Below are positions 3,673 to 63,985 of a stretch of 64,000 nucleotides of DNA, one piece after another (positions within the stretch are counted from its first letter, which is position 1; every line of letters starts with the position of its first letter). A model generated the notes under the pieces. That model saw only the letters and a program-made list of their open reading frames with translations. It was not told the DNA's origin and made no database searches. Source of the stretch: Lota lota (lineage: Eukaryota > Chordata > Actinopteri > Gadiformes > Lotidae). The stretch lies in contig JACYXH010000479.1 of assembly GCA_026745465.1 (NCBI GenBank), positions 5,177,011 to 5,241,010 of the forward strand, written 5' to 3'. The translations under genes were made by a program, and so were the position numbers.

Positions 3673-14329
<10,657 letters not shown>

Positions 14330-20907: not shown

Positions 20908-28949
<8,042 letters not shown>

Positions 28950-38420: not shown

Positions 38421-38795
<375 letters not shown>

Positions 38796-62639: not shown

Positions 62640-63985
62640 TATGGCAAGCCCTTTTAACATTTATTCAGTTGGGCTGACTAGTAGTGATTTAGTTTTCACT
62701 AGTGGAAATGACATTTCAACATGTCAAAATGTCGTTTTGACTAGTTCAAATGTTAATTTAAGATATCTGTAAAACAATTTTGACATGTTACAAATATATT
62801 TTCACATGTAGAAATTACATTTAGACTAGTCAAAACTGATTTACAGATATCTTTAATTTAATTATAGATATCAGTAATTCCTTTTTCACTAGTAACAATA
62901 ACGATTACAGATATGTACAATTGAATTTCCACATGTTGAAAAAGGATTGTAACTAGTGGAAATGTAATTACCCATTTCAGATATCAACAATTGCATTTCC
63001 GATATATATTAAAATACTACAAAGCCATTGGTCGCCCTAATTACCATATTCGTTTCGAATATGTATGTCCGTCATTGAAGATTTCTACTATTACATTTTG
63101 ACTAGTCGAAATTCCATTTTTGATATCTAAAATTCAATTCTGACTAGTTATAAAGGGAATTGTAGATATCTCAAATAGAATTGTAACTAGTACGAATATA
63201 GTTTTCACTAGTTACAATTGTATTTCAGCTATCTGCAATGCAATTCTAGATATCTGAAATGCAATTCTAGATTTCTGAAATTACATTCTTACTAGTTACA
63301 ATTCCAAGCCAACATATCAATATTTTAATTTTGACTAGTCAGAATTGAATTTTAGATATCTAGAATTCAATTAATGATATATGTAATGTAAGAACAATTG
63401 TATATATCTCTAATTAACATTTCCACTAGTTAGAATTGAATTGTAGATATCTACAATTCACATTTACACTAGTGAGAATTGAATTGTTGATATCAAGAAT
63501 TAACATTTTGACTAGTGAGAATTGAGTTGTAGATATCATTAATTAGAATTGCAACTAGTCAAAATTACATTATGGATATGTTGGCTTGGAATTATAACTA
63601 GTGAAAAAGGAATTGTTGATATCTACAATTGATATTACCGCTACTGTTTAAATGTTAAAAGGGCTCGTCATAGTTACAATCCTTTCTCAACATGTGGAAA
63701 TTCAATTGTACGTATCTGTAATCGTTATTGTTACTAGTGAAAAAGGAATTACTGATATCTATAATTCAATTAAAGATAACTGTAAATCAGTTTTGATTCT
63801 AATCTAAGTTATTTCTAAATGTGAAAAATTATTTGTAACATGTCAAAATTGTTTTACAGATTTCTTAAATTAACATTTGAACTTGTCAAAACGCATTTTG
63901 ACATGTCGAAATGTCATTTCCACTAGTGAAAACTAAATCGCTACTAGTCAGCCCAACTGAATAAATGTTAGAAGGGCTTTCCATA
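62640..63985. mobile_element. Non-coding TIR element made of a 21-bp palindrome array
   Basis: Inverted arms at 62640-62956 and 63669-63985 (317 bp each, roughly 93% alike by eye) begin tatggcaagccc / tatggaaagccc. From 62677 to 63948 the hexamers ACTAGT, GATATC and ACATGT recur every 21 bp (sometimes 22): about 40 exact copies and some 15 one- or two-base variants. The spacers are about 15 bp, AT-rich, and often contain AATT or CATT. A non-repeating core of about 73 bp lies at 63007-63079. There is no ORF. I infer a non-autonomous DNA element or foldback element; I cannot name a family. Confidence 0.75.

Follow-up and report, generated by a model that had tools for sequence, protein, structure and literature searches.

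The sequence at 62640-63985 of the window (the whole 64,000-nucleotide stretch of Lota lota DNA that was analysed) belongs to a dispersed, non-autonomous, MITE-like DNA transposon with terminal inverted repeats (TIRs), whose body is filled with six-base palindromes, or dyads, in helical phase. Comparison of its copies suggests that the dyads were preserved during amplification of the element, and that they are unconstrained once a copy is inserted. With a probability of about 0.62, we read the family as a transposon moved by a transposase that is encoded elsewhere or lost, and the dyads as cooperative sites of a dimeric protein, likeliest the transposase itself. The first-pass annotation of this DNA had recognised the phased symmetric array, while it missed the TIRs, the 7-bp target duplications, the TT/AA extension of the motif and the composite state of the window copy.

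The copy in the window

Forty exact hexamers (20 ACTAGT, 13 GATATC and 7 ACATGT) lie in 62640-63985. The first eleven start exactly at the positions given in the first-pass annotation, as does the last, at 63943. The spacing of 21 or 22 bp proposed there holds for 27 of the 39 steps between hexamers; six further steps are 42 or 43 bp long, and the remaining six measure 28, 63, 70, 72, 84 and 121 bp. The array therefore has gaps. G+C content is 28% in this interval, compared with 42% for the whole window.

What had been taken for a single element is a composite, formed by one element (62640-63672) and an inverted extra left arm (63673-63985). The element opens with the left TIR (TATGGCAAGCCCTTTTAACATTTATTCAGT; 62640-62669, forward strand), located by comparison of fetched copies and genome-wide end counts. 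It continues with a left array of 14 exact dyads (62677-62985), which start at 62677 to 62980 in steps of mostly 21-22 bp and correspond to positions 38-346 of the family consensus. A central region without exact dyads (62986-63090), delimited by the consensus alignment, separates it from the right dyad array (63101-63623), in which hexamer scan and consensus reveal some decayed slots. The right TIR, identified in the same way as the left one, closes the element (63643-63672, reverse strand) and ends CTCGTCATA. The extra arm, on the reverse strand, equals consensus positions 1 to about 316 and includes a separate left terminal repeat (63956-63985). The junction, at approximately consensus position 316, is the same as in another locus, L053, as read from printed flanks. 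The whole interval is 76% self-complementary, and the 7-mers that flank the composite, TGCATAG and GAAACTG, do not match. Two inverted left ends are found both in the window composite and in L055.

An alternation of ACTAGT and GATATC, described earlier for the right half, was not significant (P 0.065), and we rejected it as a code. The statement that the interval is not an ordinary satellite was borne out: TRF reports only short patches inside the element, which does not form a head-to-tail array of like units, and the copies are dispersed with target duplications.

Elsewhere, the window contains a 33-bp minisatellite (10519-11282; 23 copies, 96% alike) that is open in several frames, a mostly-C run of about 160 bases (38613-38772; 89% matches) beside CA repeats, and a Tc1-type transposase frame of 278 aa (25215-26051) with HTH_Tnp_Tc3_2 and DDE_3 domains. 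It also carries a MIER1/3 domain. Rfam and tRNA scans of the window gave no hit.

A dispersed transposon family

A search of the genome (575 Mb) with the element returned at least 261 matches, a bound obtained by scoring 40 of the 350 candidates. Apart from the window's own, the listed long direct matches were 78-92% identical. In the standard element, the left and right arms differ in sequence, but share the unit design and the roughly 28-bp terminal repeat TATGGCAAGCCCTTTTAACATTTAATCAGT, which is inverted between the two ends and starts TATGGCAAGCCC at both. The ends are numerous. The 29-base inner left end was found in 145 places at up to two mismatches, the right end in 150 places at up to one mismatch, and the 19-base tip in 234 exact places genome-wide, with zero places for each of the reversed controls.

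Insertion left 7-bp target duplications. Of the 40 loci that have a left-right pair of ends (L009-L068 and the window, taking the best frame for each), 29 show flanking 7-mers that agree in at least 6 of the 7 bases; the duplication length refers to the frame in which TATGG is read at both tips. Other end pairings rarely have matching 7-mers (left-left 0 of 6, right-right 1 of 3, a locus with an unclear end 0 of 1). Perfect 7-mers occur in 17 of the 169 end-pair rows, which include off-by-one duplicates, against 0.4 expected; for flank 7-mer matches, the shuffled expectation is approximately 1.2 of the 169 rows. The 29 target 7-mers are diverse, and the target site is weakly symmetric, in the form W-S-N5-S-W. 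Taken together, dispersed copies, terminal repeats and 7-bp duplications identify a non-autonomous cut-and-paste transposon.

For alignment we used 51 of 76 loci, leaving out the 25 without a left-right pair of 500-1500 bp. The aligned elements are 573-1433 bp long and 88-98% identical to their consensus. Longer forms, for example L012 with 43 exact dyads, contain about 237 bp more, close to the right end.

Several copies (L053, L033, L032, L057, L058, L097 and the window copy) are joined to further members of the family, in or beside the arrays. Because L053-L059 were chosen partly for inverted pairs in the end lists, the share of composites among them is not a frequency. In some fused copies, the TATGG tip adjoins an ACTAGT or GATATC dyad, which hints at self-targeting or end-to-dyad joining. 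A copy at L038 (positions 1-600; C19:2022160-2022760) lies next to a tandem array made of at least 14 repeats of the left-terminal 43 bp. The 43-bp unit consists of the terminal repeat and the first dyad, with ACTAGT joined to TATGG, and forms a nascent satellite of transposon tips.

Consensus motif and helical phase

The 1110-bp consensus of the 51 copies contains 39 hexamers, compared with a mean of 1.5 and a maximum of 6 in 1000 first-order Markov simulations. GATATC is the commonest (18 of 39), and 33 of the 38 steps are 21 or 22 bp long. Individual copies retain a median of 34 exact dyads.

The full motif is wider than the hexamer and reads ATTnnn(ACTAGT/GATATC/ACATGT)nnnAAT. In the consensus units, T is present at -8 and -7 in 38 of 39, and A at +7 in 38 and at +8 in all 39, although these bases played no part in defining the unit register. 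Around the 1633 exact dyads of the 51 copies, TT is found 1461 times and AA 1496 times, whereas the same hexamers in the window outside the element have TT in 5 and AA in 7 of 54 cases. The earlier description, that hexamer and spacing are kept while the rest drifts, is wrong for the TT/AA bases 7-8 bp from the dyad centre, which are kept too. An asymmetric relative of the motif, GGATATGT, occupies two register slots and recurs in the central region. There, at consensus positions 347-517 (window 62986-63090), its repeats resemble a mix of GATATC and ACATGT halves.

In 50 copies, the helical period that best fits the dyads has a median of 10.52 bp, and the median vector strength of the dyad phase is 0.67, compared with a maximum of 0.58 in 500 random sets. 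Genome-wide, the pattern ACTAGT-N5..35-GATATC-N5..35-ACTAGT occurs in 812 places, not every one of them necessarily in this transposon family, versus 69 for the reversed control. In the 50 distinct places listed of the 812, all spans are 47-50 bp, where 28-88 bp were allowed.

Family copies share in-register deletions of 21 and 43 bp. We considered shared deletions of 21, 32, 32 and 43 bp as phase-keeping events and rejected the idea, because slippage between repeats explains them. Shared deletions of 1, 1, 1 and 2 bp, as well as an 8-bp central insertion, break the phase.

Constraint on the dyads

Variants shared among copies represent changes in a source lineage that were copied on, and private variants represent changes after insertion. 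A role of the dyads in movement predicts that shared variants are depleted there and private ones are not. CpG sites were excluded from the main variant tests.

Private variants were about equally frequent everywhere in the 51 copies, with 0.0172 per cell in hexamers, 0.0148 in the TT/AA bases and 0.0164 in spacers. Shared variants were not. At a threshold of three or more copies, 15 non-CpG variants fell in hexamers (private 181) and 85 in spacers (private 358; odds ratio, OR, 0.35; P 0.00014). The contrast grew with the threshold, to 4 versus 46 for four or more copies (OR 0.17), a roughly sixfold rarity in hexamers, and to 1 versus 33 for six or more (OR 0.06), counted on hexamers of the majority consensus, which can hide high-frequency variants. 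Restricting spacers to those strictly between adjacent dyads gave, at four or more copies, 4 (private 181) versus 34 (private 264; OR 0.17, P 0.00017). With linked variants merged over both arrays, the OR for dyads was 0.24 (P 0.0006). When a 6-bp mask was slid along the unit, the minimum of shared variants (4) lay at offset 0, which is the hexamer, and the maximum (26) at -10 and +10. Stronger conservation of hexamers than of spacers in aligned copies was the test suggested in the first-pass annotation, and its outcome supports the expectation. Because shared variants are depleted and private ones are not, the dyads appear to have been constrained during amplification and not after insertion.

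The left array shows the same tendency on its own, at one threshold. At four copies, hexamers had no shared variant (private 67) and spacers 9 (private 96; P 0.013), and hexamers together with TT/AA again had none (private 114; P 0.001); at thresholds of three and six, the left array alone gave no significant difference (P 0.20 and 0.15). In the right array, the shared spacer variants could come partly from exchange between units.

A second set of 32 other loci, which share ancestry with the 51 copies, repeated the depletion at a threshold of three (hexamer OR 0.23, P 0.010; hexamer with TT/AA OR 0.15, P 0.0003) and also at four. At five, hexamer depletion in this set was not significant (P 0.28). 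Private variants were somewhat rarer in hexamers here as well (97 of 4630 cells versus 189 of 7062, or 0.021 versus 0.027). Thirty-four loci had been given, two of which (L035 and L098) yielded no aligned bases; L099, which has the same flank as L098, L048 and L049-L052 were not part of the set.

The TT/AA bases taken alone were borderline against spacers (P 0.054). Terminal repeats did not differ from spacers in shared variants (P 0.69), perhaps for having too few sites. Only 1 of 31 double changes in a hexamer restores the palindrome, and thus there is no sign of compensatory half-site evolution within the family.

Search for a mobilising transposase

No autonomous partner was recovered among the copies and ends compared. 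With lengths of 573-1433 bp, none of the 51 aligned elements can hold a usual transposase gene. Among the 14 loci at which frames were listed, one long frame lies between family ends, in L071 (2.5 kb between ends), and we take it to be a Tc1-like insertion. L071 was consequently rejected as an autonomous copy; it is a family copy carrying that insertion. Apart from L071, no adjacent facing ends 2-10 kb apart were seen by eye among the best 100 of 164 and the best 100 of 234 ends. Most facing exact tips among those listed are separated by 0.6-1.3 kb; L071, nested copies on C47 and stretches on C41 and C42 depart from this.

On C41 and C42, both small contigs, two right ends face outwards at a distance of about 12.5 and 13.3 kb, and family copies flank both sides of a larger inverted stretch. 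The frames between these copies are presumably retrovirus-like and hAT-like. The interior is not an element of this transposon family, and the stretches were rejected as the autonomous partner. The corresponding loci (L049-L052; C41:31900-45200 and C42:2200-16200) are 13-14-kb stretches, 99% identical, with inverted flanks and family copies on both sides, and repeated 349-base matches suggest tandem units within them.

The 7-bp duplications would fit the P superfamily. The P-type transposase profile PF12017 had no match in the genome, and its controls likewise had none; PF21787 found one fragment with stops and PF21788 one fragment. The stretches of about 3.2 kb compared around the two fragments do not contain the family terminal repeat.

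Further ends that were not among the exact left or right matches also carry dyads, in 10 of 10 and 13 of 13 cases (23 in total, with L098 and L099 sharing a flank), and the 13 have 2-18 dyads in about 500 bp. Two loci, L106 and L077, resemble the family only up to about position 163. Beyond it, neither interior shows any relation to the other or to the further loci compared, which indicates truncated or deleted copies, and a second subfamily was rejected. In L077 (tip C221:1377927), a left arm of about 165 bp is directly joined to the right-tip GCTTGCCATA, possibly as a very short, internally deleted copy.

Proposed function and alternatives

In the favoured model, each dyad would be bound by one homodimer, with (AGT/ATC/TGT)nnnAAT as the half-site. 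Steps of 21-22 bp correspond to two helical turns and would place neighbouring dimers on one face of the helix, where they could bind cooperatively along each arm. The arrays might thereby raise the local amount of protein and assist the pairing of the element ends, and short, weak sites would owe their specificity to being many and in phase. Homodimers on the dyads, cooperativity along one face and the transposase as the bound protein are proposed on the strength of when the constraint acted, of the two-fold symmetry and of the precedent of Galileo. The platform for a dimeric protein proposed in the first-pass annotation thus remains the best reading, given same-face two-fold sites that are kept over spacers, with the transposase as the likeliest protein. 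If the dyads do bind the transposase, end recognition could be probed by varying how many there are and how they are phased. The few hundred ends are in themselves a natural experiment, as changes before and after insertion can be separated and so show which bases transposition needs.

A bolder version, which we regard as rather unlikely, is that the body acts as a filament nucleator. On each arm, the phased dyads would line up transposase, or another dimer, without interruption along one face; end pairing would be set by array length and phase more than by the terminal repeats, and the element would outcompete its autonomous partner for the protein. If true, this would be a design of transposon ends that is absent from the literature consulted.

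Binding of the transposase to the dyads is not the only way to explain their constraint. The same transposon could carry sites for a dimeric host factor, transcriptional or architectural, that aids its amplification or expression. Selection in the amplifying lineage fits any factor needed in cis, and its footprint would be identical. Two of the three hexamers, ACTAGT and ACATGT, conform to RCWWGY, given as the core of the p53 decamer in excerpts of PMC3485254, which describe a zebrafish non-autonomous element carrying p53 sites. However, GATATC, with 18 of the 39 consensus hexamers, misfits RCWWGY, so p53 was rejected as the dyad binder, and we consider a host factor an unlikely explanation.

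It is still less probable that the array is a functionless remnant, left when a palindromic unit of 21 or 43 bp was duplicated in tandem, its apparent conservation arising from homogenisation or misalignment. The in-register deletions of 21 and 43 bp, the tandem amplification of the 43-bp terminal unit at L038 and the clustering of shared spacer variants in the right array fit such an origin. Yet in the left array, where each of the shared spacer variants listed stands alone at a single site, the count is still 0 versus 9 (threshold 4, P 0.013), and the effect survives the merging of linked variants.

Nucleosomal DNA has a period near 10.2 bp. A phased array that shapes chromatin or bends DNA, positioning nucleosomes, an option of the first-pass annotation in its chromatin part, found little support and is the least probable reading: AA/TT periodicity near 21.8 bp, with a weaker 10.5-bp component (9.4 versus a highest peak of 8.8 in 60 simulations), speaks for it, but the WW signal at 10.5 bp (3.5) is below the peaks of Markov simulations (mean 7.2), the dyad period of about 10.5 bp is the free-DNA value, and hexamers are unconstrained in inserted copies.

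Comparison with known systems

Short, non-coding elements with TIRs and repeated subterminal transposase-binding motifs are familiar from the Ac/Ds, CACTA and Hermes types, in which the repeats are fewer, located near the ends and usually non-palindromic. Compared with MITEs that have such subterminal repeats, the repeats described here span most of the element and do so in helical phase. hAT elements generate 8-bp target duplications, and the 7-bp duplication speaks against assigning the family to them. Foldback elements share the repetitive arms, and some of our composites have two inverted left ends; the long inverted arms of foldback elements are absent from the standard element, in which the arms differ, but present in composites such as that of the window.

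Among fish transposons, Dada elements make 6-7 bp target duplications, according to excerpts of PMC8869645. Dada-U6 and Dada-U1, as presented in parts of PMC3706591, are located in small RNA genes and have no terminal inverted repeats. An assignment to Dada is unlikely, because the elements in those parts of PMC3706591 lack terminal repeats and here TIRs of about 28 bp are present.

Galileo, a P-superfamily element of Drosophila, is alike in the 7-bp target duplications and the internally repetitive arms. The P superfamily (Galileo/1360) duplicates 7-8 bp of target, and the 7 bp found here lie within that range. In excerpts of PMC3688188, Galileo has several transposase sites within its arms, with THAP sites at approximately 70, 561-577 and 701-718 bp; the transposase domain binds multiple arm sites, and the authors propose that many sites give specificity. 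The same excerpts raise, for Galileo, the open question of why some transposons have long repetitive arms. Chimeric Galileo copies are flanked by non-matching 7-mers in the portion of PMC3573991 consulted, and resemble the window composite and five other left-left pairs, 0 of 6 of which have matching 7-mers. There are differences as well. Galileo's target consensus, GTANTAC in the available part of PMC4168063, is not found at our insertions, which are weakly W-S-N5-S-W. Galileo TIRs, as described in these excerpts, mostly measure hundreds of bp, and few sites are mapped in Galileo, whereas here a TIR of about 28 bp is combined with some 40 symmetric sites that fill the body. Titles and abstract openings in the literature revealed no element with such density, symmetry and phase, and repeat libraries may already catalogue the family. 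That transposase sites form arrays at the ends of transposons is known, as in Galileo, and it is their density, phasing and symmetry that are unusual in this Lota lota family.
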